Shown: positions 1,362 through 12,579 of the stretch, in pieces
Layout: each line of letters begins with the position of its first letter
Numbering within the stretch: position 1 is the stretch's first letter
NCBI GenBank assembly: GCA_003139735.1
Contig: PLGA01000510.1
Coordinates: 1 to 16,317, forward strand
Source of the DNA: Bryobacterales bacterium
GTDB taxonomy: Bacteria > Acidobacteriota > Terriglobia > Bryobacterales > Bryobacteraceae
DNA: 16,317 bases
Reading direction: 5' to 3'
The notes under the pieces: model-generated
What the model was told of the DNA's origin: nothing
The model's input: the letters and a program-made list of their open reading frames with translations, nothing else
Databases searched by the model: none
Position numbers and translations under genes: made by a program

Positions 1362-1979
1362 TCACCGCTTCTCGAAGAACAAGAAATATTGATAGGGCAA
1401 CGTATCCAAACGCTTTTTGAGGGCGAAGCCCGCCTTCCGAAGCTCTGCGATGACTTGTTGGTTCGAGAGTTTCATCGATGGTGGAGGGCCGATTGGGAGG
1501 GCTCGCTTATAGAAATCAATGACCACAATACGCCCGCCTGGCTTCAATACCTTGGCGAGTTTGGCATAGTATGCCGGCCGGTTCTCTATGTGGTGGAGCA
1601 CGTCACAGAAGAAGATCGTATCGGCCGACTGTGCCGGCAGACGAGGGTCGTCTGGAGCAGCAACAATAGTCACCAAATTGGCGGGCGCTTTGGCGCGCAC
1701 GATCGCGAGCAATTTCTCGTCAATATCGACCGCATAGACTTTGCCTGCGTGAAGCGCAAAGCGACGAGCGAAATATCCGGTTCCAGCCCCGATGTCCGCG
1801 ACGGTGTCGGTCGGTTTGAAATCCAGCGCCATGATGACATCGTGAGGTTTCTGCCATTCATCACGCGAGGGATCCTCCAACACCTTCGCGTACTCGCCCG
1901 ACGATGGCGGGTGGTGCTGATGGGGCACTTGCCCAAGTGCCACAACCGCAAGAGTCAACATCCATGCGTAACGTTTCAT
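1362..1979 (-). CDS. Exported class I SAM-dependent methyltransferase
   Basis: This 205-residue protein has a clear Rossmann methyltransferase core. Motif I is Val-Ala-Asp-Ile-Gly-Ala-Gly-Thr-Gly (about 60-68), an acidic motif-II loop Ala-Val-Asp-Ile follows, and a Asp-Val-Leu-His-His segment precedes the post-motif region Lys-Pro-Gly-Gly-Arg. Unusually for a SAM enzyme, residues 1-16 look like a signal peptide, followed by a short His-rich stretch (Pro-His-Gln-His-His). If exported it would need SAM outside the cytoplasm, so the hydrophobic leader may instead anchor it facing inwards. The start at 1979 is supported by AAAGGAGAG six bases upstream. The substrate is unknown. Its position between the lipoate ligase and chrA suggests a role with the rest of the operon, such as methylating a metalloid, thiol or small metabolite, but that is inference. 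Confidence 0.8.
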   Translation of the reverse strand: MKRYAWMLTLAVVALGQVPHQHHPPSSGEYAKVLEDPSRDEWQKPHDVIMALDFKPTDTVADIGAGTGYFARRFALHAGKVYAVDIDEKLLAIVRAKAPANLVTIVAAPDDPRLPAQSADTIFFCDVLHHIENRPAYYAKLAKVLKPGGRIVVIDFYKRALPIGPPPSMKLSNQQVIAELRKAGFALKKRLDTLPYQYFLFFEKR

Positions 1980-2640
1980 AATCGCTCTCCTTTACCAGCC
2001 CGAACACCTGTCGCGTGGCGTCGAGCGCTATACGTTCTATGGCGGCCCGGTCCGCATTCACCCCCAGCGACCGGAATGTCGTAAGGAAGTCCCGGTGAGT
2101 GCGCCCTCGCCGGTAAGCGGGCTCTCGCGGAGGATGTTTCAACACGGCTTCGGCAAGTTCGTGGTCGAAGTCGGCGAGCAGCGTCCCGTGGACGAGAAGC
2201 GCCTTCCAACGCCGGGCCTGAGCGCTGCCGGAGATCTTCCGGTCGCCCACCGCCACATCCGATGTCCCTTCCGGCCTGCCCACCACACCGAAGGCCGCGA
2301 GGATCGCACAAATCAGATCGATGCCCGGACGAAAACCGGCCTTCGGGTCCAAGTTCGCGGGAGCGGGCGTTATCAGCGAGTAGTTCAGCACACCGCCGGT
2401 CTGGAGCACGCTGCCTCCGCCGGTGGACCGTCTGAGTACATCTACTCCCAGCCTGGCGCACGCTTCGGCGTCCACCACTTCTTCCGGTCGCTCGCTGGAG
2501 CCAATGACCACGGCTGGCGGTCCTCCCCACCAGAACCGCAGTTGGCGGAGTCCCGTCGTACATGCCGAACGCGCTGCAGCATCATCAATGGCGAGATTGT
2601 CAGCTACAGTCGGGGCCGACCAGAACACTACTTCCATCAT
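1861..2640 (-). CDS. Lipoate-protein ligase A / lipoyltransferase family protein
   Basis: This protein has the BPL/LplA fold that attaches lipoate or octanoate to a carrier lysine. Visible landmarks are the Arg-Arg-x-Thr-Gly-Gly-Gly nucleotide/lipoyl-binding loop (about 70-76), the Leu-Asn-Tyr-Ser strand, and the Lys-Ile-Ser-Gly-Ser-Ala-Gln motif holding the catalytic lysine (Lys135), followed by His-Gly-Thr-Leu-Leu. Its ATG overlaps the stop of the preceding DGC gene (ATGA), so the two are translationally coupled. The obvious carrier is the H-domain protein encoded three genes upstream. As read, the ORF is 259 residues and overlaps the methyltransferase by 119 bases. If the GGG at 1999-2001 were GG, the protein would end in Phe-Gly-Trp at a TAA (1992-1994) next to the methyltransferase ribosome site, at about 215 residues. 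The C-terminal end is therefore uncertain. Ligase, octanoyltransferase and amidotransferase activities cannot be separated from sequence. Confidence 0.82.
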   Translation of the reverse strand: MMEVVFWSAPTVADNLAIDDAAARSACTTGLRQLRFWWGGPPAVVIGSSERPEEVVDAEACARLGVDVLRRSTGGGSVLQTGGVLNYSLITPAPANLDPKAGFRPGIDLICAILAAFGVVGRPEGTSDVAVGDRKISGSAQARRWKALLVHGTLLADFDHELAEAVLKHPPREPAYRRGRTHRDFLTTFRSLGVNADRAAIERIALDATRQVFGLVKESDYETLRMDVDSCGCGTWASAPSAPPAIVGRVREGVGGSLA

Positions 2641-3338
2641 TTCGCCGGCTGGGGGCCGCTCCTGAAGGCCTGGTAGGCCGCAAGCAAAGCGCTCCGATAC
2701 CCGGTTTCTTCCTCTGGCAGGATGCGGCGGTAAATTCTCACCGCCTCAACCAAAGCGGAGCAGCCGCCGGTGTCAGCGGGGATGTCGCGTTCGACGCATT
2801 GCTCAAAGATCAGCGGCAAACCAGGGATGCTGACGGCGACGCCCAGGACGATCAACTTCCCGCCCGACGCCGGGCTTGAGCACGAACACTGGGCGCCGCT
2901 CGACCCGGCCGCGATGTCATCGCGCGGCCCCGTCTCCGCCAATACGGTGTCCACCTCGGCGGCAATCCGCTCCGCGACAGCCCAGACCGCTTCTTTATCT
3001 GGCTGGGTCGCGTCCCGCGACGCGCGATGGCAGCCCACTGCCCGGGTTCCGAGGATGCCGGTGACCACCAGTGCGGAGCTGACCGGGCCGCTGTGCTCTT
3101 CCGTGCCCCATTTGGCGCACTGCTTCTCGCACCCGTCGATGGTGATGGTTGGATGCGTCTTGGCGAAGTTTCGCTCCGCTTCATTCCCGGCGAGGAACAG
3201 CGGCAAACAAAGGGTGACCGTCGCATTGGGCCTCAGCAGTTCCAGGACCCGGCGTGTCGCCAGGCGCGAAATCGTCCCTTCGGGGATCGCTTCCCCGCTG
3301 CATGAGATGATGCCGACCTTCGTGGTTTGCGGACTCAT
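2637..3338 (-). CDS. DGC-domain putative zinc-binding protein, 233 aa
   Basis: The protein belongs to the DGC family (PF08859-like), named after a conserved Asp-Gly-Cys. Near the N-terminus is a Ser-Cys-Ser-Gly motif (Cys13). A Cys-Leu-Pro-Leu segment follows, and then Ile-Thr-Ile-Asp-Gly-Cys-Glu-Lys-Gln-Cys around residues 67-76. The C-terminal half is longer than in the neighbouring paralogue and carries a Cys-Ser-Cys pair near residue 150 and two later cysteines. The family is proposed to bind zinc through its cysteines; its biochemical role is not established. The ATG at 3338 overlaps the preceding stop, and the stop overlaps the lipoate ligase start, so three genes are coupled in series. 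It is the last of three DGC-containing genes in this operon. Confidence 0.8.
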   Translation of the reverse strand: MSPQTTKVGIISCSGEAIPEGTISRLATRRVLELLRPNATVTLCLPLFLAGNEAERNFAKTHPTITIDGCEKQCAKWGTEEHSGPVSSALVVTGILGTRAVGCHRASRDATQPDKEAVWAVAERIAAEVDTVLAETGPRDDIAAGSSGAQCSCSSPASGGKLIVLGVAVSIPGLPLIFEQCVERDIPADTGGCSALVEAVRIYRRILPEEETGYRSALLAAYQAFRSGPQPAK

Positions 3339-3763
3339 CGAATCGCCTCCTCACTGGCGCACAAGCTCGCCGCCTCGCAAGCAACCGAATCGGCAATCTC
3401 CCGTGTGATGGTCCACCCGTCATCGGTCAGCGCTGTCGCGTTGCCCGGTTTCGCGCCCCGGTGGTTCTTGAACGCTTCGGCCACCTGGATCGCTTTCGCC
3501 ACGCGTCCGCCGGCCATCGCCACGTTCTTCTCCGCGCAGGCCTTGACGCACCCGTCAATGGTGATGCAGGCGTGGCTTCGCACCGCCGCAACCGCTTCGG
3601 AGTCTCCCTTTACCAACAAAGCCAGACACAGCGTGTCCGTCTGGGCCGGGGCCAACTCGTCGGTCACCAGATAGGTGGCTTCGCGACTCATCAGGCCATG
3701 CACTTTTCCAATCCCGCTGCACGGGATGACCAACACGGCGTTCTTAATAGGCTCGTTTCCCAT
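3335..3763 (-). CDS. DGC-domain putative zinc-binding protein, 142 aa
   Basis: This compact DGC-family protein has Pro-Cys-Ser-Gly close to the N-terminus and Ile-Asp-Gly-Cys-Val-Lys-Ala-Cys in the middle, the two cysteine motifs expected for the fold. An upstream in-frame start would add 17 polar residues that overlap the preceding gene. I chose ATG 3763 because AAGAGGA lies seven bases upstream and the protein then begins just before the first conserved strand. It starts 13 bases after the DGC-H fusion stop and its own stop overlaps the next DGC gene in an ATGA. It resembles the N-terminal domain of the fusion, so the trio probably arose by duplication. No enzyme activity can be inferred from the sequence. 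Confidence 0.8.
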   Translation of the reverse strand: MGNEPIKNAVLVIPCSGIGKVHGLMSREATYLVTDELAPAQTDTLCLALLVKGDSEAVAAVRSHACITIDGCVKACAEKNVAMAGGRVAKAIQVAEAFKNHRGAKPGNATALTDDGWTITREIADSVACEAASLCASEEAIR

Positions 3764-3776
3764 TCGACTGTTCCTC

Positions 3777-4615
3777 TTACTCCTCGGCAGCCTTGCGCTT
3801 GACGATTTCCGCATACGCAGCCGGGTCTAGCAGCAGTTCCCGGTCTTGCGTGAAAGACGTCAGTTTCACTTCGACCAGCCAGCCGGCGCCGTAAGGATCT
3901 TCATTGATGAGGCCAGGGTTATCGATCACGGCGGGATTGACGGCAGTCACGTTGCCGGCGACCGGGGCGATGATCTCAAACACCGCCTTGGCCGACTCCA
4001 GGCTGCCCAGTTCGCCGAACTGTTCGACGGCCGCATCGACTTTAGGCGGATCGAAGTAGCTGATGTCGGTCAGCTTCTGCTGCATGTAGTCGGAGATCCC
4101 CACCCGCGCCACACCGTCCAACACGCGGGCCCAGACATCGTTCTCGTTAAACACGTAGTCCACTACCGGAATCCGGAACTCGAACTTGTCGTGGGTCACG
4201 ACAAGGTACTCCGTCGGCGTATCAAACTCTGAAGCCGGCTCAACGGCAGGCGCGTTGAGGTTGCGGACCAGTTCACCAACGATCGACTGGGCCAGCAAAA
4301 TGCCCTTGGGCCCCAGGCTGAGTGTGGATTCCAGGGCCTGGCCCGAGGCTTTGACGGCATCCGACACCAACACCTTCCGCTCCACCTTCGCTTCCAGCCG
4401 GGCGGCGAGTTTCGTGGCGCACCGCGTCGAACATCCATCGACAATGATCAGCAAACTATCGTTGAGGGCCTCCTGTAACGCGCCGGCGCACGATTCAAGA
4501 GTACGGGGCAGATGACTTCACTCCCGGTGGCCTCGGCGCCGCGGATCGCCACCTCCCGCGTCACGGAGCCCTCGGCCTTGTCCAGGCCGTTGCATGAGAG
4601 AATCGCCCGCTTCAT
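3777..4615 (-). pseudogene. DGC domain fused to glycine-cleavage H-protein (lipoyl carrier) domain, frameshifted near the N-terminus
   Basis: From ATG 4615 the first 40 or so residues form a DGC N-terminus (Ser-Cys-Asn-Gly motif), ending out of frame near 4493-4500. The adjacent frame continues the same fold with Ser-Cys-Ala-Gly and Ile-Val-Asp-Gly-Cys-Ser-Thr-Arg-Cys. Restoring one base gives about 279 residues. The unbroken downstream frame then runs directly into a full GcvH domain: Val-Gly-Ile-Ser-Asp-Tyr, Glu-Ser-Ala-Lys (predicted lipoyl lysine, codon 3987-3989, about residue 210), Ala-Pro-Val-Ala-Gly and an Ile-Asn-Glu-Asp-Pro-Tyr-Gly signature. The fusion itself is real because the linker and H domain share one frame with the DGC motif. 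The ATG overlaps the ferredoxin stop (ATGA). No gcvT, gcvP or lpd gene is nearby, so a role outside glycine cleavage is likely. The nearby lipoate ligase is its probable modifying enzyme. Confidence 0.85.
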
Positions 4616-4901
4616 TTAACATTCTCCCGTTCGCGGATCTGTTTGATCAGCGCGATGGTTTCCGGCTTGCTCGGGAAAGAGATTGCGTCTGGGCCGCACG
4701 TTTTCGAGCAGGCTCGACAAAACGCGACGCAATTCGCAGGATTGGCCACCACCAGCTTAAGATCGCCCTCCCGCCGCTCGAAAACGCGATGGGGGCAGAA
4801 CGTGTCGCACTCCATGCAGAAGGTGCATTTGTCATATAGCCGATCGTGGGAAACCAGGGGATTTGAGCCCGCGGCACGCCCATAAACGTGGTCTCAGCCA
4901 T
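4612..4901 (-). pseudogene. Two-cluster 4Fe-4S ferredoxin, frameshifted between the N-terminal segment and the first cluster
   Basis: The C-terminal frame holds two cluster motifs: Cys-x2-Cys-x2-Cys-x3-Cys-Pro, then a less usual Cys-x3-Cys-x2-Cys-x3-Cys-Gly-Pro. In that frame there is a stop upstream and no start before the first cluster. The neighbouring frame from ATG 4901 encodes a fitting N-terminus ending in Trp-Phe-Pro-Thr-Ile-Gly-Tyr. The two join at a TATAT around 4826-4832; removing one AT gives Ile-Gly-Tyr-Asp-Lys-Cys and a 95-residue protein. A two-base duplication therefore explains the break. Ferredoxins of this kind pass electrons between enzymes in the cytoplasm. The stop overlaps the start of the DGC-H fusion, so this protein is a likely electron partner of the lipoyl carrier, although that is inferred from position only. 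Confidence 0.78.
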
Positions 4902-5039
4902 CTTTTTCCACCCCCATCTCATGCAGCGCGGTGGAAACTTTCTGGATAGGCTGAAACAGGACAATTGGCGAGATCTTTCCTGCCGCCCCTTGGGCTTGTA
5001 TAGCTATCTGTTGGTTGCCTCGGCGGAGTAAGGCCGCAT
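4894..5039 (-). pseudogene. Possible small unknown protein of about 48 aa, frameshifted
   Basis: The zf-HC2 gene ends in TAATG, so an ATG at 5039 is coupled to its stop. That frame reads only 11 codons before TAG. A neighbouring frame is open through the rest of the gap and encodes a plausible amphipathic sequence containing Ser-Pro-Ile-Val-Leu-Phe-Gln-Pro and Ala-Leu-His-Glu-Met-Gly, ending at a TGA that overlaps the ferredoxin ATG. The spacing at both ends is that of a real operon member. The length of 146 bases is not a multiple of three, so one indel is required. I do not recognise the family, and the gap could instead be non-coding. Confidence 0.4.
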
Positions 5040-5320
5040 TATGTCCCCCGGTTCGGGCCAATCGGCCGGGCGGCGAGCGTCTTTTGCCAAGCCCTCTCGA
5101 GTTCGGCCCTGGCCGAGGGATGGAGCGGTTGGGGTTTCACGCTTGGCTCGTATGCGTGGCAGACTTCGATGGTTCGACGCAAGCTATCGGCGAGCGCCAG
5201 GCATCTCACGCAGACGCGGAGATGCTTCTCCACTTCGGCTGCGGTTCCCGTGTCCAGATCTTCATCGAGATAGTCTGAGAGCCAAGCCGTGACCTGCTCG
5301 CAGGCGCTCAGATGTCTCAT
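5039..5320 (-). CDS. Soluble zf-HC2 anti-sigma-factor-like zinc finger protein
   Basis: The 93-residue protein starts with a zf-HC2 domain. Cys7 and the His33-x3-Cys37-x2-Cys40 motif are the expected zinc ligands of ZAS-type anti-sigma factors, and the spacing between them fits the family. No membrane segment follows, so unlike many family members it should be cytoplasmic. The C-terminal half is polar and of unknown role. No sigma factor gene is in the window, so its partner would have to be encoded elsewhere, or the domain acts as a redox-sensitive metal site. It begins 24 bases after the osmC-like gene and ends in TAATG. Placed near the front of the operon, it may regulate it, but this is not shown. 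Confidence 0.7.
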   Translation of the reverse strand: MRHLSACEQVTAWLSDYLDEDLDTGTAAEVEKHLRVCVRCLALADSLRRTIEVCHAYEPSVKPQPLHPSARAELERAWQKTLAARPIGPNRGT

Positions 5321-5344
5321 GATGCTTGGCGGCCAAGCCGCACA

Positions 5345-5755
5345 TCAGGCGGCGGGCATCTCGACCGGCGCATTGAGAACAACGTCGATCGCCGGCGCAT
5401 TCAGCAGCGTGTTGTGGACCAGGCACAGCTTTACCGCCCGAAGAATACCGGCCTGATGCTGTGGATCGAGTTCGGGCGCGGTCACCTCAATCCGAAAGCG
5501 CCCCAGCCTCGCGGGCTGCGTAGCCTTTTCCGCCGTGACCATGACTCTCAGTCCATCGGAGGGTAGGGACCTCGCCTTGAGGTATTGCGCCGCGTAATAC
5601 CCAGCGGATGTCCCCAACGATACCAGGAGAAACTCAGGGGGCGTCATGCCGCTGTCGGAACCGCCATTGATGGCCGGCTGATCGCAGATCACGCGATGGC
5701 CGCGCGCGATCGCCTCAAACTTTGCTTCGCCTAGATATAGGATTTCCGCTTCCAT
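5345..5755 (-). CDS. OsmC-family protein with Ser in place of the usual first cysteine
   Basis: This 136-residue protein matches the OsmC/Ohr fold: an N-terminal strand region, the Thr-Pro-Pro-Glu-x-Leu-Leu helix start (about 38-44), and the late Val-Lys-Leu-Cys-Leu-Val-His motif carrying the second conserved cysteine. Active OsmC/Ohr thiol peroxidases reduce hydroperoxides using two cysteines. Here the position following Leu-Gly-Thr is Ser50 (codon TCC, one base from TGC), so classical peroxidase activity may be lost or altered. It is the first gene of the minus-strand operon, directly facing the divergent regulatory region. The start at 5755 follows a GAAGG motif at modest spacing. The role may be thiol, persulfide or small-molecule binding instead of peroxide removal. 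Confidence 0.8.
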   Translation of the reverse strand: MEAEILYLGEAKFEAIARGHRVICDQPAINGGSDSGMTPPEFLLVSLGTSAGYYAAQYLKARSLPSDGLRVMVTAEKATQPARLGRFRIEVTAPELDPQHQAGILRAVKLCLVHNTLLNAPAIDVVLNAPVEMPAA

Positions 5756-5775: not shown

Positions 5776-5834
5776 CAAGATGCAAGATATTCGAGAACGT
5801 GACGGCGTCACCAACCGGCGGAATTTGCATCTTG
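5776..5834. promoter_or_regulatory. Divergent intergenic region with two concentric inverted repeats (candidate operator)
   Basis: Between the osmC-like gene and the outer-membrane efflux gene, a perfect 10-base inverted repeat (CAAGATGCAA at 5776-5785, TTGCATCTTG at 5825-5834) encloses a second perfect one (GTGACG at 5799-5804, CGTCAC at 5806-5811). Both have their centre of symmetry at 5805. A direct repeat CAAGAT occurs at 5776 and 5783. The placement between divergent operons suggests a shared control site, bound by one dimeric regulator at two levels or by two regulators. No regulator gene of a classical operator-binding family lies beside it, and I could not assign -35/-10 boxes with confidence. 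Confidence 0.55.
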
Positions 5835-5867
5835 AGGGATGAAGCGGAGTTCCAAGTTCCGAATATC

Positions 5868-7202
5868 ATGAGAAAGTCACTGTTTTTGATCCTGGCTGTA
5901 CCCTTATTCGCGCAGGACGATTCGCTCTCGCTGCGCGATGCGGTCCGGTTGGCCCTGCGGGAGAACAAAGCCATTGCGGGCGCCAATGCGGCCGTGCGCG
6001 CCGCGGAAACGGGAATCGGCGAGGCCCGCTCCGGCAGGCTGCCCAAGCTGAACTATTCCGAATCGATCGTACGAAGCGACAACCCGGTGTTTGTTTTCAG
6101 CTCGCTGCTGACGCAACACCAGTTCGGCATGGCGGACTTCAACATCGGTCCCCTGAACCGGCCGGGTTTCATGGACAATTTCCAGTCGCTGGTCACGGTA
6201 GACCAGTCGCTCTACGACGGCGGGATGACGCGCAACGCGTTGAAATCGGCTGGTCTTACGCGGCAGATGACCGGAGAAGAGCAGCGCCGCACCCAGATGC
6301 AAGTGATCGCCGGCGTGGTGCGAGCGTATTACGGCGTGGCGCTGGCGGCGGAGAGCCTGAAGACAGCGGAGCAGGCGCTGGAAAGCGCGAAGGCGGACCT
6401 GGCGCGCGCGGAATCGGTGCAGGCGGCCGGCATGTCGACGGATGTCGATGCGCTCTCGATACGGGTGCATCTGGCGGCCGTTACCGAAGAGCGCATACAA
6501 AGGGCGGCGGATCTGGATGTCGCGAAATCCGCGCTGAACGACGCGATGGGACTGCCGCTGGACGCGGGCCATCGGCTGACGACATCGCTTGCCCCGATGA
6601 ACCTGCCGGAGTTGACGCTGGCGTCGCTTGAAAAAGACGCTTCCTCGACGCGGCCGGAGGCGCGCCAGGCGCACCTGGCCGCGGACCTGGCCGGCGCGCA
6701 GGCGGACAACGCCCGTAGCGCGCTGCTCCCCCAGGTGGGTTTTCACGCGGCCTTTGAGGCGGATCGCCGGCAGTTCGCCGACAATGGCGGGGCCAACTGG
6801 CTGGCCTCCATTGGATTACATTGGAACCTTTTCAACGGGCTGGCCGATAAGGCGCGCATCGCGGAATCGGGCCAGTCCGTGGTTCGCGCGCACGCCGACG
6901 AAGAGCGCGTCGATTCGGCGGTGCGCCTGGAAGTACGGCGCGCGTTTGCCAATTTGCAGGCGGCGCAGCAACGGATCGCCGTGGCGGAGGCGGCGGTAGC
7001 CGAGGCGGAGGAAAGTTTGAGGATCACGCAGAACCGCTACCAATCCGGAATGAGCAATGTGACGGACCTATTGCGTACTGAAACGGCGGTGCTGGAGAGT
7101 CGGACCCGGCGCCTGGCGGCGGTGCACGACCAACGCATCGCCGCGGTGATGTTGGATCTGGCGGCCGGGCAGCTTTCGCCCGATTCGGAGGTATTGAACT
7201 AA
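5868..7202 (+). CDS. TolC-like outer membrane efflux protein
   Basis: This is the outer-membrane channel of a tripartite efflux pump, spanning the outer membrane and periplasm. From ATG 5868 the protein is 444 residues with a signal peptide (residues 1 to about 15, ending Ala-Gln). Two repeated OEP domains follow, rich in Ala, Glu, Arg and Gln in long coiled-coil helices, as usual for the TolC family. A longer frame from GTG 5799 exists but would bury the signal peptide behind 23 residues and start inside the inverted repeat, so I reject it. The ribosome site before 5868 is weak (GGAG about 15 or more bases away). The stop overlaps the adaptor start in TAATG, showing coupled translation. Confidence 0.9.
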   Translation: MRKSLFLILAVPLFAQDDSLSLRDAVRLALRENKAIAGANAAVRAAETGIGEARSGRLPKLNYSESIVRSDNPVFVFSSLLTQHQFGMADFNIGPLNRPGFMDNFQSLVTVDQSLYDGGMTRNALKSAGLTRQMTGEEQRRTQMQVIAGVVRAYYGVALAAESLKTAEQALESAKADLARAESVQAAGMSTDVDALSIRVHLAAVTEERIQRAADLDVAKSALNDAMGLPLDAGHRLTTSLAPMNLPELTLASLEKDASSTRPEARQAHLAADLAGAQADNARSALLPQVGFHAAFEADRRQFADNGGANWLASIGLHWNLFNGLADKARIAESGQSVVRAHADEERVDSAVRLEVRRAFANLQAAQQRIAVAEAAVAEAEESLRITQNRYQSGMSNVTDLLRTETAVLESRTRRLAAVHDQRIAAVMLDLAAGQLSPDSEVLN

Positions 7203-8353
7203 TGCGATTCTCGACGATTGTTCCCGTTCTTCTTTCGGCCGCAGGGCTTATCGGATGCGGCGGCGGCGAGCCTCAGCGCAAAGCGGACGCAAGCGCAGCC
7301 GCCGTTCCGGTGCGGACGGCGACCGCAAGCGTCGCGGAGTGGCCAGATGCGTACGAAGCCACCGGAACGGTTCGCGCCCGCACGACGACGGTGCTTTCGA
7401 GCAAGGTGATGGCGTACGTGCGGCAGGTCGCCGTTCAGGTGGGCGACCGCGTTCAGGAGGGCCAGCTTTTGGTCACCCTGGACTCGCAGGATCAGGACGC
7501 CCAGGTTCGCCTAGCCGAGGCCGGGGAGGCTGAGGTGGTGAGCGCCATCCCCGAAGCTGACAACGGCGTGGCCGGGGCCAAAGCCAACCTGGATCTGGCG
7601 CAGAGCACGTTCCAGCGCATGCAGGAACTCGCGTCCAAGAAGTCGATCTCTTCCCATGAGTTCGACGAAGCGTCGGCGGCCCTCAAGTCGTCCCAGGCCG
7701 CCTACGAGATGGCCCGCGCCAAGCGCGCCGAGCTCGATTCCAAACGGGCGCAAGTGCAGCAGCAAATCCGGGCCGCGGGCATCATGCGCGATTACACGCG
7801 GATCTCGGCGCCATTTTCGGGCATCGTCACCGCGAAATCCGCTGAGGCGGGAACTCTGGCCGCTCCCGGCGCGCCTCTGCTGACGGTCGAGCGCGAGGGC
7901 GCCTATCGGCTGGAGGCGTCCGTGGATGAATCCCAGCTTCCGTTCGTGAAAACCGGGCAGAGCGTCGATGTCGCCCTGGACTCGATGGACCGCCGATCGA
8001 GCGCACGCGTTTCGGAAATCGTTCCGGCGGTGGACGCGGCCTCGCGCGCCTATATCGTGAAGATCGATCTGCCGGACATGCCGAATGTACGGTCCGGCAT
8101 GTTCGGGCGGGCATGGTTTCCCAAGGGCATTCGCAAAGTGGTGGCGATTCCACCGGCGGCCCTCGTCGAGCGCGGGCAACTGCAATCGGTGTTCGTAATG
8201 GAAGGCGGCATCGCGCGTTCGCGCCTGGTGACTACCGGCGAGCGCGGGCCACGCGGCGTGGAAGCGCTGTCGGGGTTGAACGCGGGAGAGAAGGTAGTCA
8301 GCCCGCCGCCCCCCGGGCTGACCGATGGCGCACGCGTGGAGGAGCGGCAATGA
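7202..8353 (+). CDS. RND efflux periplasmic adaptor (membrane fusion) lipoprotein
   Basis: The 383-residue protein links the inner-membrane pump to the outer-membrane channel. A lipoprotein signal peptide ends with Leu-Ile-Gly-Cys, so Cys19 should be lipidated. A lipoyl-like half-motif (Val-Gly-Asp-x-Val-x-Glu-Gly-Gln-Leu-Leu) sits near residues 80-90. An alpha-helical hairpin follows, then the second half-motif Ile-Ser-Ala-Pro-Phe-Ser-Gly-Ile-Val, then beta-barrel and membrane-proximal domains. This domain order is standard for the HlyD_D23/AcrA group. It overlaps both neighbours (TAATG before, ATGA after), so the three pump parts are made together. Confidence 0.92.
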
Positions 8354-11300
8354 GCGGGCCGACTTCCGGGCCGCGGCGTCTCGGGCCGGCCGGACGCTTC
8401 GCGCATGCGTGGATCTCTTCCAAGCTGACGCCGCTAATCATTGCTGCCGCCCTGCTGCTGGGCGGTTTCGCGGTGTGGAAGTTACCGCGCGAGGAAGAGC
8501 CGCAGATCATCGTGCCGATGATCGACGTTTTCGTGCAGATGCCCGGGGCGTCGCCGCGCGAGGTGGAAGAGCGCGTCACGAAGCCGATGGAAAAGCTGCT
8601 GTGGGAGATCCCCGGGGTCGAGTACATCTACTCGACTTCCAGCCCAGGGCAGTCGCTCGCTATCGTGCGTTTCTACGTGGGCCAGGACGAAGAGAAAAGC
8701 GTCGTCCGCCTCAACCAGAAACTGGCCGCCAATTTCGATATCATCCCGCCGGGCGCCTCGCGGCCTCTGGTAAAGCCGCGGTCGATTGACGACGTACCGA
8801 TTCTGGCGCTCACCCTCTCCAGCAAGCGGTACGGAGATTTCGAGCTGCGCCGGATCGCGGCCCAGGTGGACGACACCGTCAAGCAGGTACCGGATGTTTC
8901 CGCAGTCACGTTGATCGGCGGGCAGCGACGGGAGATCCGTATTGTTCTGGATGAAGGAAAGCTGGCGGCCTATAATCTCTCGCCGCTCCAGGTTGCCGGA
9001 GCGCTCGGGCTTTCGAACCAGCGTCTGCCTTCCGGACAGTTCGATATGGCGAACCAAGAGTACCTCCTGGAGACCGGCGAGTTTCTGCGAACCACCGAAG
9101 ACGTGCGCAACATGGTGGCCGGCGTGGCCAACGACAAGCCCATTTTCGTCCGCGACGTCGCCGCGGTGAGCGATGGAGGCGAAGAGCCTTCCCAATATGT
9201 TCGCATGGCCCATGCCGGGTCCAGTGAGTTTCTACCTGCCGTGACCATCGCCATCGCCAAGCGTAAAGGAACGAATGCCGTCATTGTGGCGGACAACGTT
9301 CTCCGGCGTATCGAGACGCTTAAGGGCGGCGTAATTCCCTCGGATGTCCAGGTGGATATCACGCGCGACTATGGCGAAACAGCGGCGGAGAAATCGAACG
9401 AACTGCTGTTTCATATGCTGATTGCCGTGGTATCGGTAAGCATACTGATTGCCATTACGCTGGGTTTTCGCGAATCGCTGATCGTGTTCATTGCCATTCC
9501 GGTGACTCTCGCCCTGACGTTGACGGTGTTCTATCTTTACGGCTACACGCTGAACCGCATCACGCTGTTTGCTCTGATTTTCTCCATCGGCATTCTGGTG
9601 GACGACGCCATCGTGGTGGTGGAGAATATCGTGCGCCACTGGCGTATGGCCGCGAACCGTGAGCGGCCGCCCTACGACGTTGCCATCGAGGCCGTGGATG
9701 AAGTGGGAAACCCGACCATTCTGGCCACCCTGACAGTCGTCGCGGCCATTCTGCCGATGGCTTTCGTAGGCGGGTTGATGGGGCCGTACATGCGTCCGAT
9801 CCCGATCGGCGCGAGCGCGGCCATGGTGTTTTCGCTACTGGTGGCTTTCATCGTGACGCCGTGGGCGGCGGTCCGGATTCTCAAATCGGGCCATTCCTCG
9901 AAGCACGGGGAAAGAGAGGACCTCGTGACGCGGGTCTATCGCGTCGTGATGGGAAAGATATTGCACGTTCCGGCGGTGCGTTGGAGCTTTCTGCTGGGGG
10001 TGGTGGTCCTGCTGCTCGGCTCGGTTTCCTTGTTTTATTTCCAATTTGTAAAAGTGAAAATGCTGCCGTTCGACAACAAGAGCGAGTTCCAGGTGATTGT
10101 GGATATGCCGAACGGAACGACCCTCGAAGAAACGGCCCGCGCCACCAATGCTCTGGCGCGCGCCACTCTCGATCAGCCGCAGGTGGTGAACCTTCAGACC
10201 TATGTTGGCACCGCATCCCCATTCAACTTCAACGGGCTGGTGCGGCACTATTATCTCCGCCAGGGGTCGAACGTCGCCGACATTCAGGTTAACCTGCTGC
10301 CGAAAGGCGACCGCAAACTACAGAGCCACGCCATCGCCAAAGAGGTTCGGCAGCGGCTGCTTCCCGTGGCCGAGCAGTATGGGGCCCGCATCAAGGTGGC
10401 GGAAGTGCCGCCGGGACCGCCGGTGCTCGAAACCTTGGTGGCCGAGGTCTATGGGCCGGATTTGAACGAACGCACCGGCATCGCGCGGCGCATCCGCGAT
10501 TTGTGGAAGCGCACGAACGGCGTTGTAGATGTGGATTGGTACGTGGAGGACGACCAGCCGAAGTACCAGTTGACGGTGGATAAAGAGAAGGCCGCGCTGA
10601 ACGGGATTTCCGAAGACGACATTGCCCAAACCGTGGCGCTCGCTTCTTCCGGATACCAGGCGGGCCTGCTCCATTCGGATTCCGCTAAGGAAGATATACC
10701 TCTGATGCTGCGCCTCGACCGCGCCACGCGTTCGGACCTGGAAAAGATCCAGAACCTCAAGGTTTCCGGACGAACAGGCCGGTTGGTGGCGTTAAGCGAG
10801 CTGGTGCACAGCAAGGAAGTGGTCGCAGACAAGAGCATCTACCACAAGAACCTGATGCCGGTTACGTACGTAACGGGAGACGTGGCGGGCGCCATGGAAA
10901 GCCCGGTGTACGCCATCCTTAAGCTTGGACCGGAAATGGACAAGTTCCGGGCGCCAGGCGGGTATGCAATCGAGCAACATATGGCGACGCTCCCCACCGA
11001 CGCCGAGCACTATTCCATGAAATGGGATGGGGAATGGCACATTACCTACGAAGTGTTCCGTGATCTGGGAATCGCCTTCGCGGCGGTCTTGATCCTGATC
11101 TACGGCTTGGTGGTGGGATGGTTCCAATCGTTCGTCACGCCGCTCGTCATCATGGCGGCAATTCCGTTTTCGCTCGTCGGCATCCTGCCTGCGCACGGTC
11201 TGATGAACGCGTTTTTCACAGCCACTTCGATGATCGGGTTCATTGCGGGGGCGGGGATCGTGGTGCGTAATTCGATCATTCTGGTCGATTTCATCGAGCT

Positions 11301-11541
11301 TCGATTGCAGGAAGGGATGCCGCTGGATGAAGCGGTGATCGACGCGGGAGCGGTCCGCTTCCGTCCCATGATGTTGACCGCGGCCGCCGTGGTAGTCGGC
11401 GCCAGCGTGATCCTTTTCGACCCGATCTTTCAGGGCCTTGCCATAGCGCTAATGGCTGGAGAAGTCGCGTCTCTGGCACTGTCGCGCGTGACGGTGCCCG
11501 TTGTCTACTTTGTTGTAAATCGAAGGAGGAAAACCGTATGA
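8350..11541 (+). CDS. RND efflux pump permease, HAE-type, AcrB/AcrF family
   Basis: This is the proton-driven inner-membrane pump. I start it at ATG 8350, overlapping the adaptor stop; the upstream open frame is a shadow of the adaptor gene. The product is 1063 residues, the usual size, with an N-terminal membrane segment, two large periplasmic loops and two blocks of transmembrane helices. The Gly-Ile-Leu-Val-Asp-Asp-Ala motif in the fourth helix supplies the two proton-relay aspartates. The position matching AcrB Lys940 appears to be Arg (Val-Val-Arg-Asn-Ser-Ile), which may mark a subfamily. The Glu-Glu-Glu-Pro-Gln segment after the first helix is typical of this group. Substrate specificity cannot be read, although pairing with a DUF2892 gene recalls efflux loci in sulfur-metabolising bacteria. 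Confidence 0.93.
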
Positions 11542-11741
11542 CCGTCGAACGTTACTTACGCCTGATTGCCGGCTTTTTCGTGATGCTGAGCGTGGCCCTG
11601 GGTTATTGGGTCAATCCTGCATGGTTCTTGTTTACCGCCTTTGTCGGCGTGAACCTGTTCCAGTCGGCATTCACCAACTGGTGTCCCATGATGACATTCC
11701 TCCGGAAGGCGGGTGTCGGTACGTCGCCTAAGCTCTCGTAG
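11538..11741 (+). CDS. DUF2892 (YgaP-type transmembrane) small membrane protein
   Basis: This 67-residue protein has two hydrophobic helices separated by a short loop and the Asn-Trp-Cys-Pro-Met-Met motif, typical of DUF2892. In YgaP the same transmembrane unit is fused to a rhodanese domain that carries sulfane sulfur, but no rhodanese domain is present here. ATG 11538 overlaps the pump stop in ATGA and follows an AGGAGG-like stretch inside the pump gene's end, so expression is linked to the pump. The conserved cysteine may bind a thiol or metal group. The role is inferred from family and position. Confidence 0.82.
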
Positions 11742-11969: not shown

Positions 11970-11994
11970 GAGCTTGGGCATTTTGCCCAAACTC
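11970..11994. terminator. Candidate bidirectional terminator hairpin after the efflux operon
   Basis: Arms GAG-C-TTGGGCA and TGCCCAA-A-CTC pair over 10 of 11 positions around a TTT loop. It lies between the plus-strand efflux operon and the minus-strand stress-protein fragment, where a convergent terminator would be expected. No long T-run follows on either strand, so its strength is uncertain. Confidence 0.45.
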
Positions 11995-12054
11995 GTTTGC
12001 ACCGACTTTACCCCTTTCCCGAGGATAGCCCTGGCATCGTTGCCGATCCTGTGC

Positions 12055-12238
12055 TTAATCCGACGCTGCAGGACCGGATCCTACCGTCAGCACCGGGCAC
12101 GGCGCATGGCGCACCGTTCGCAGCGTGGTCGTTCCCAGAACCATTCCATCGAAAAAGCGTCGGCGCGCCGCTCCCAACACGACCAGGTCGTACGGCTCCT
12201 CCGTGGCGAGCTTGACGACCTCCTCGGCCGGATCTCCA
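12055..12238 (-). pseudogene. Universal stress protein (UspA family), C-terminal fragment
   Basis: On the minus strand about 60 residues match the C-terminal half of UspA-type proteins: Gly-Asp-Pro-Ala-Glu-Glu-Val, then Asp-Leu-Val-Val-Leu-Gly-Ala, then Leu-Gly-Thr-Thr-Thr and the closing Ala-Pro-Cys-Pro-Val-Leu-Thr-Val, ending at TAA 12055-12057. Upstream of about 12238 the same frame becomes low-complexity Arg/His-rich antisense of a histidine kinase gene. The N-terminal half of the stress protein is absent. The gene is therefore a remnant cut by a rearrangement, with its break point at the kinase fragment. Confidence 0.75.
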
Positions 12239-12579
12239 TGGAGGCGCTGGCCGTAGCGCTGCGAAACCTGGTGGACAACGCGCTGAAGTATTCGCCGGAT
12301 CAGCCGGCGGTGTGGGTGGAGTGGGGGCCTGAGAACGGGCGTGTGGCGATCCGGGTGCGCGACAAGGGGATGGGCATCGCGGAATCGGAACGCAACGCGA
12401 TCTTCCGGAAGTTCGTGCGCGGCAGCGCGGCGGCGGCGGGCAACGTGAGAGGCACGGGCGTGGGACTGGCGATGGTGCGGCAAATTGTCATCGCGCACGG
12501 CGGAAGCGTTCGGGTGGAGAGCGATCCTGGCCGGGGTAGCACGTTCACGATGCTCCCGCCGGCGAGCGGAAGAGTATGA
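12239..12579 (+). pseudogene. Histidine kinase, C-terminal ATPase-domain fragment
   Basis: This stretch encodes the ATP-binding half of a sensor kinase: the N box Asn-Leu-Val-Asp-Asn-Ala-Leu-Lys-Tyr, the G1 box Asp-Lys-Gly-Met-Gly-Ile, and the G2 box Gly-Thr-Gly-Val-Gly-Leu. The frame is open further upstream to 11974, but that part is antisense to the stress-protein fragment and has no kinase character. There is no phosphoacceptor (HisKA) or sensor domain, so the gene is cut at about 12239. The stop overlaps the response regulator start (ATGA), the normal arrangement for a kinase-regulator pair whose order here is kinase first. Confidence 0.8.

Follow-up and report, generated by a model that had tools for sequence, protein, structure and literature searches.

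Lipoamide bound to proteins has long been recognized as a target of arsenite. In the available text of PMC6205960, lipoic acid is among the thiols bound by arsenite, and the available text of PMC4486171 describes lipoylated proteins as reductants of Ohr and OsmC. Known lipoyl-dependent processes include glycine cleavage, the oxoacid dehydrogenases and the sulfur-oxidizing sHdr-LbpA pathway. Here, we analysed a 16,317-nucleotide stretch of DNA (the window; contig PLGA01000510.1 of assembly GCA_003139735.1) from the draft genome of a Bryobacterales bacterium of the phylum Acidobacteriota, which carries genes for a lipoyl carrier of the GcvH family (H) fused to a DGC domain, two further, cysteine-rich DGC proteins (DGC1 and DGC2), an LplA-type ligase (Lpl) and a ferredoxin. 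Comparison with related loci supports that these genes belong to a module separate from glycine cleavage, which is probably dedicated to arsenic or a similar metalloid. We give a probability of about 0.5 to the reading that the intact module of the relatives would be an arsenic-responsive lipoyl-dithiol system; the copy in the window is itself damaged.

Distribution of the module and its lipoyl carrier

Related loci were searched for with a profile built from DGC1 alone (A1), without any H sequence. The profile matched 15 of 396 genomes of Acidobacteriota, including the genome of the window (E <= 1e-10), 37 of 195 of Asgard (the phylum of the Thorarchaeota locus), 11 of 345 of delta-proteobacteria (the phylum of locus L015; E <= 1e-15), 2 of 301 of Chloroflexi (the phylum of the Dehalococcoidia locus) and 19 of 299 of Firmicutes, 13 of the latter with more than 150 bits; phylum names outside Acidobacteriota are those of the record titles, not of a lineage. 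Loci were sampled from 21 of the 37 matching Asgard genomes, with the Thorarchaeota genome G399 contributing two module copies (L201 and L202), and from the 13 Firmicutes genomes above 150 bits, leaving out six with 61-72 bits. Two DGC1/DGC2 pairs were also observed within 20 kb in the Firmicutes locus L223. One DGC1 had 2248 relatives at E <= 0.001, with a relative also encoded by Syntrophus gentianae, and the DGC-H fusion of the acidobacterial locus L013 had 653 relatives among public proteins (E <= 0.001), with both Pfam domains in the 120 listed. The initial annotation of the window had proposed that co-occurrence of these genes outside this genome would speak for a defined system, and the gene set is indeed kept across phyla; loci within one phylum are not independent of each other. 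Because its presence is sparse and scattered, the distribution suggests horizontal transfer. Spread by plasmids was considered and set aside: a search of 72,556 plasmid records with one DGC1 gave no match (E <= 1e-8).

We compared a discovery set of 59 loci and a hold-out set of 15 loci with 63 control GcvH loci (L020-L082), which are not taxon-matched. An H gene was present within 4 kb in 57 of the 59 discovery loci found by the DGC1-only profile. Ten of the 59 came from an H-based search and four (L198-L201) repeat loci already known from it; among the remaining 45, which were not initially reached by way of H, 43 contain it. The two loci without H (L186 and L192) are both near contig ends, and the H of L197, counted among the 57, is a divergent fragment. 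Similarly, H was found in 13 of the 15 hold-out loci, the exceptions being L228 and L231 and with L223 counted as H-bearing though its H adjoins its other DGC1 copy. All 57 discovery loci with H have the lipoyl-acceptor lysine. In a maximum-likelihood tree, 56 of the 57 H proteins were on one branch (99/94), apart from the 63 control GcvH; L197 was outside this branch with a branch length of 4.9, and the 57 together do not form one side of a branch.

GcvP and GcvT, searched for with one reference each (E <= 1e-10), were detected in 0/59 discovery and 0/15 hold-out loci, while the same search detected them in 36/63 and 34/63 control loci, respectively. A recurrent E1/E2-like cluster was not noticed near the loci, though no E1/E2 model was run. 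The H domain of the window scored above the cut-off of Pfam GCV_H (PF01597; 106.6 vs 22.2) and short of the NCBI cut-offs for GcvH (TIGR00527, 95.9 vs 115.85; NF002270, 113.7 vs 117); the L015 H reached 102.4 and, just short of 117, 116.8 on the same two models, on which the control GcvH were not scored. Because the module has its own H branch, is found without GcvP and GcvT, and is conserved across phyla, these observations support that it is a predicted lipoyl system separate from glycine cleavage. This is what the initial annotation had deduced from the window, naming glycine-cleavage or dehydrogenase genes in relatives as evidence to the contrary: neither GcvP nor GcvT was found in the relatives' loci, and one dehydrogenase, the E3 component dihydrolipoyl dehydrogenase (Lpd), occurs in some of them.

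DGC1 and DGC2 were found in 59/59 discovery loci, and the hold-out locus L231 was without a DGC2 label. Four cysteines of DGC1 are invariant in 59/59 loci, and each of three cysteines of DGC2 is kept in 58/59. In a structural model of the L013 DGC-H fusion (mean predicted local distance difference test score (pLDDT) 85.8; predicted template modelling score 0.54), the DGC part has a pLDDT of ~75-90, and its strands alternate with helices; C8, C36 and C62 lie directly past strand ends, and C66 opens the next helix. TGA codons were flagged in some DGC matches; these are probably ordinary stops that close the reading frame, and selenocysteine was set aside.

Many loci carry lipoylation genes (either of LplA type or LipA together with LipM/LplA-like) and an electron input, which is either an HdrA-N-like protein with an eight-cysteine ferredoxin or Lpd. 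The HdrA-N-like protein is a single-domain protein of 125 residues that is present together with the ferredoxin in 23/59 loci, and its five cysteines as well as the eight of the ferredoxin are invariant in 23/23 aligned sequences. It had no match in Pfam or NCBIfam and weakly matched the N termini of HdrA proteins in the PDB (7bkb, E=0.0047; two more HdrA, 0.086 and 0.49). Lpd is near in 8/59 discovery loci and in 7/15 hold-out loci, in 6/15 within 8 kb. Mercury methylation was considered and rejected: the ferredoxin matched the HgcB model weakly (27.7 bits for the window and 36.9 for L007, cut-off 99), and HgcA was not searched for.

An OsmC-like gene is near in 24/59 loci and in 0/63 controls. 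The first catalytic cysteine is present in 24/24 of these OsmC-like proteins and the canonical second, whose place was set from PDB 2onf and 2d7v, in 0/24 (serine in 22); in 22/24, another cysteine follows 21 columns past the first.

Arsenic genes around the module

Arsenic labels were assigned by single-sequence phmmer matches with thresholds fixed after viewing the first 59 loci, and the same references were applied to the discovery, hold-out and control sets within 8 kb. The hold-out set was first scored with five extra reference proteins; uniform rescoring changed three discovery counts (30 to 31, 42 to 43 and 37 to 38) and left the fourth at 45. The reference proteins scored above curated cut-offs (ACR3, TIGR00832, 457 vs 282.8; ArsG, 280 vs 200; ArsM, NF008823, 347 vs 263; ArsE-type thioredoxin, TIGR00412, 105 vs 62; Lpd, TIGR01350, 481 vs 408.8).

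ACR3, ArsM, ArsP or ArsG was encoded in 31/59 discovery and 11/15 hold-out loci vs 1/63 controls, and an ArsR-type regulator in 43/59 and 13/15 loci vs 0/63 controls. The ArsR contained CxC or a C-terminal TPCxC in 38/59 and 9/15 loci (controls 0/63). The available text of PMC4562236 gives ELCVCDL as the metalloid site of an ArsR, and the CxC sites of the module ArsR proteins resemble this motif. Taken together, an arsenic gene or a cysteine-motif ArsR was found in 45/59 discovery loci (24/24 of Acidobacteriota, 13/22 of Asgard and 8/13 of the L015 type), in 12/15 hold-out loci and in 1/63 controls; an arsenic gene proper was present in 18/24 loci of Acidobacteriota and 6/13 of the L015 type. 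ACR3 is near in 21/59 loci, and ArsM is within 8 kb in 14/59 vs 1/63 controls.

In L171, a single strand carries ACR3, HdrA-N-like, ferredoxin, DGC-H, DGC2, DGC1 and ArsR genes, placing the module within a compact arsenic cluster. Likewise, L220 contains ACR3, H, DGC2, DGC1, OsmC-like, Lpd, LipA and LipM genes, with ArsM on the opposite strand. Altogether, the arsenic link is well supported by gene neighbourhood, the chemistry being deduced, and we consider it probable that the module serves arsenic or a similar metalloid. The initial annotation had guessed at a thiol or metal system; the direction was right in that the neighbours are arsenic genes, while the OsmC and zf-HC2 genes of the window, which it counted in, are not members.

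Two further observations concern genes in these neighbourhoods. In L007 (4237-5328), an arsenite methyltransferase is fused to an ArsE-type thioredoxin domain. L120 (6399-7751) encodes a radical SAM protein whose nearest relatives are maturases of the tungsten cofactor (291.6 bits against a cut-off of 380), and the cluster of this protein recurs near DGC1 in 12/59 loci.

Locus types and the window copy

The loci of relatives are of two main types. In the first (L005-L014 and L112), an HdrA-N-like gene is followed by ferredoxin, DGC-H, DGC2, DGC1 and, on contigs that extend far enough, Lpl; most of these loci have ArsR, an ArsE-type thioredoxin or ArsM upstream, and a gene of the CMD family is often found downstream. 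Three Firmicutes loci of this type (L223, L227 and L229) have Lpd upstream of HdrA-N. In L013, an insertion separates HdrA-N from the ferredoxin; at 6640-9860, the HdrA-N end and the ferredoxin occur twice in partial form, on either side of an inserted stretch that reads through as one frame of 866 residues from the first ferredoxin start. The second type has a free H in the order H, DGC2, DGC1 and OsmC-like, in some loci followed by Lpd, LipA and LipM/LplA-like, and was seen in L015, L016, L018, most other loci of that phylum, many Acidobacteriota and some Firmicutes. In some Asgard loci, the order is thioredoxin-like, DGC2, DGC1 and H.

The window copy is of the first type and has the following features:

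1362..1979, minus strand: S-adenosylmethionine-dependent methyltransferase with a hydrophobic N-terminus, 205 residues (PF08241, 67.6 bits); downstream, a possible member only
1861..2640, minus strand: Lpl, LplA-type lipoate ligase large domain, 259 residues (PF21948, 117 bits; PDB 2ars, lipoate-protein ligase A, E=4.4e-13)
2637..3338, minus strand: DGC1, DGC domain with a C-terminal extension, 233 residues (PF08859, 55.7 bits)
3335..3763, minus strand: DGC2, DGC domain, 142 residues (PF08859, 52.1 bits; start from the L014 alignment)
3777..4615, minus strand: DGC-GcvH fusion, the lipoyl carrier (piece 3777-4490: PF01597, 106.6 bits, and PF08859, 29 bits; tblastn of the L014 fusion, two frames)
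4612..4901, minus strand: ferredoxin with eight cysteines, 2x4Fe-4S type (tblastn in two frames)
4897..4947, minus strand: remnant of the HdrA-N-like gene, last 17 codons (tblastn, 76% identity to residues 109-125 of the L014 protein)
4948..4953, no strand: junction, end of homology to relatives (blastn against 11 relatives; junction bases inspected)

Transcription on the minus strand follows the order HdrA-N-like remnant, ferredoxin, DGC-GcvH, DGC2, DGC1, Lpl and methyltransferase, with stop/start overlaps at 2637/2640, 3335/3338 and 4612/4615. The methyltransferase gene stands after Lpl here and in two of the 11 relatives (80% identity in L013 and 86% in L014); the other nine are without it. 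The order ferredoxin, DGC-GcvH, DGC2, DGC1 and Lpl recurs identically in relatives, and the gene order in the window is thus not due to chance. The initial annotation had read these genes together with OsmC and zf-HC2 as one coupled operon. Its H domain with a lipoyl lysine and its lipoate ligase-like enzyme are both borne out by the Pfam matches above, and its three DGC domains are all present, the third being fused with H in one gene. The eight cysteines of its ferredoxin are those invariant in the relatives, and in the window the frame of this gene changes near 4836 (tblastn). That there was neither Lpd nor HdrA is true of the window and not of the relatives.

OsmC (PF02566, 47.9 bits) and zf-HC2 (PF13490, 42.2 bits) are encoded on the minus strand within 5039-5755. 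DNA homology with 11 relatives (L005-L014 and L112) breaks off at ~4952 (blastn), and neither protein had a match in those relatives (E <= 0.01); therefore, the two genes are unrelated neighbours beyond the junction, and their membership is not upheld. Moreover, the OsmC of the window is of a different subfamily, as it lacks both cysteines common to the OsmC-like proteins of the module and has serine at the canonical first cysteine place and cysteine at the canonical second.

Some of the module genes are themselves interrupted. The DGC-GcvH fusion is one open frame in 10/10 acidobacterial relatives (L005-L014), while in the window the frame changes between 4469 and 4508. The HdrA-N-like gene is upstream of the ferredoxin in 11/11 close relatives, the window keeping its final 17 codons, and a search of the genome of the window with the HdrA-N profile, run without a positive control, found no copy at E <= 0.01. 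The DGC1 profile detected no second module copy in this genome, matching just the DGC1 and DGC2 of the window. We conclude that the window copy is truncated and is probably non-functional or mis-assembled. With two frame changes, one truncated gene, the junction and a draft genome of 661 contigs that is 81.85% complete, we favour, for this copy only, decay of the operon or an error in the draft assembly over a working operon; against this, the frames of DGC1, DGC2, Lpl and the methyltransferase are uninterrupted, and their products share 70-86% identity with the proteins of relatives. The window would either have lost arsenic genes or never have had them.

Elsewhere in the window, next to the truncated module, divergent genes on the plus strand (5799-11741) form an efflux cluster that encodes TolC, a membrane-fusion protein, an RND permease and a YgaP-like membrane protein; the latter two were named by Pfam and the former two by eye. 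At 11974-12579, also read by eye, a short histidine-kinase-like C-terminus (plus strand) overlaps an apparent UspA-like C-terminus (minus strand), which resembles two joined fragments and is perhaps another rearrangement. The same genome encodes a strong GcvH on contig C494 and two more divergent GcvH-family proteins (C355:3679-4023, 74.8 bits; C545:15569-15784, 30.1 bits).

Proposed chemistry and described systems

In the reading to which we give a probability of about 0.5, the GcvH paralogue dedicated to the module, which is either free or joined to a DGC domain, would be lipoylated, and its dihydrolipoyl arm would be the working dithiol, held reduced by NADH and Lpd or by the ferredoxin (plus HdrA-N). 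The arm might bind trivalent arsenic, or reduce a pentavalent or disulfide form; arsenic would be exchanged between the arm and the cysteine sites of DGC, and DGC proteins could pass arsenite, for export or methylation, to ACR3 or to ArsM/ArsP. The OsmC-like protein of the second locus type may be a further dithiol partner. This dithiol-relay chemistry is a tentative proposal. Equally tentative is the wider idea that bacteria and Asgard archaea share a lipoyl-dependent enzyme system for arsenic without a described counterpart, in which the dihydrolipoyl arm captures or reduces arsenic and DGC proteins are the transfer partners.

Several observations weigh against an arsenic-responsive lipoyl-dithiol system. 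An arsenic gene is present in just 7/22 Asgard loci, and no marker was found in 14/59 and 3/15 loci, some of them on short contigs and some not. Taken singly, ArsP (3 vs 0 controls, p=0.11), Lpd (8/59 vs 3/63 controls, p=0.12) and LipA (6 vs 1 controls, p=0.056) show no significant difference from the controls. ArsR-family regulators sense other metals and sulfur as well. The window is without ACR3, ArsM, ArsP and ArsG and without a cysteine-site ArsR, and the one ArsM of its genome above the cut-off is on contig C274, without the module. DGC had no solved relative by sequence search, and we know of no chemistry for it. Lipoylation of the carrier and arsenic binding are themselves predictions from sequence alone.

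Because lipoylated proteins reduce Ohr and OsmC, as the available text of PMC4486171 reports, the main rival is a lipoyl peroxidase induced by arsenic stress, in which electrons would flow from Lpd through lipoyl-H to the OsmC-like (or a CMD/AhpD-like) protein that destroys hydroperoxides, and DGC would only bind metal. The enrichment of OsmC-like genes over the controls and the Lpd adjoining them in several loci are in line with this; however, most loci of the ferredoxin/HdrA-N type are without OsmC, yet all 59 have DGC1 and DGC2, the canonical second cysteine is absent from every OsmC-like protein, and the CMD protein of L007 has one cysteine and no CxxC pair (by eye). We consider this role unlikely.

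Two other roles appear less probable still. Lipoyl-H together with the ArsE-type thioredoxin might regenerate the thiols of ArsM during methylation, as the excess of ArsM near the module and the L007 fusion of ArsM to such a thioredoxin would allow; nevertheless, 45/59 loci are without ArsM at that threshold, and ACR3 is commoner. With about the same low probability, the module might be a sulfur-handling relative of sHdr-LbpA that acts, for example, on sulfur from thioarsenates or in sulfane sulfur oxidation. The combination of a GcvH-like carrier, an HdrA-N-like protein and a ferredoxin recalls that pathway as it stands in the available text of PMC10332631; however, no open reading frame labelled HdrA-N exceeds 300 codons in the 59 loci, and the HdrB-type CCG motif occurs in two of them (L172 and L199), several kb from DGC1. 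By open reading frame length and CCG motif, no set of sHdrA plus sHdrB/C genes was found in the 59 loci; the hold-out set was not scanned.

If the arsenic-responsive lipoyl-dithiol system is real, a dedicated lipoyl carrier in arsenic clusters would turn the target of arsenite into a tool, and a further lipoyl-dependent process would stand beside glycine cleavage, the oxoacid dehydrogenases and sHdr. Moreover, DGC proteins would gain a testable role, and the module could help to recognize anaerobes and Asgard archaea that handle arsenic. With reservation, we regard as new the combination, the H clade and the tie to arsenic, each protein family being already known; among the literature matches listed, no paper joined DGC, lipoyl and arsenic, which does not show absence from print.

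Compared with described systems, the module shares with ars operons the families ArsR, ACR3, ArsM, ArsP and ArsE-type thioredoxin as its neighbours; by contrast, the available text of two arsenic surveys, searched by term, is without DGC, OsmC, ferredoxin or a lipoyl component; one of them names lipoic acid as an arsenite-binding thiol. The SAO/Tso selenoprotein clusters have in common with it a theme of thiol or selenol and organometal, and the ArsP_1 permease of L007 scores 127.8 on SaoE (cut-off 325), whereas the available text of the review PMC13188914, searched by term, is without DGC, lipo and GcvH. With the lipoyl peroxidases (Lpd-SucB with Ohr/OsmC), it shares the adjacency of Lpd, a lipoyl protein and an OsmC-family protein in some loci, but its carrier is GcvH-like and dedicated, its OsmC-like proteins lack the canonical second cysteine and its core is DGC. 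Like sHdr-LbpA, the module uses a GcvH-like carrier for a purpose other than glycine cleavage, has lipoylation genes close by and includes an Hdr-related protein as well as iron-sulfur clusters; unlike it, the module has an HdrA-N-like domain of 125 residues only, CCG in 2/59 loci, DGC proteins and arsenic genes, and it is by these gene neighbours, not by a comparison of the H clade with LbpA, that the two are set apart. Finally, glycine cleavage and the module share a GcvH-family carrier with a lipoyl lysine and, in some loci, Lpd, whereas the module has its own H branch, GcvP and GcvT in 0/74 loci, and DGC partners instead.

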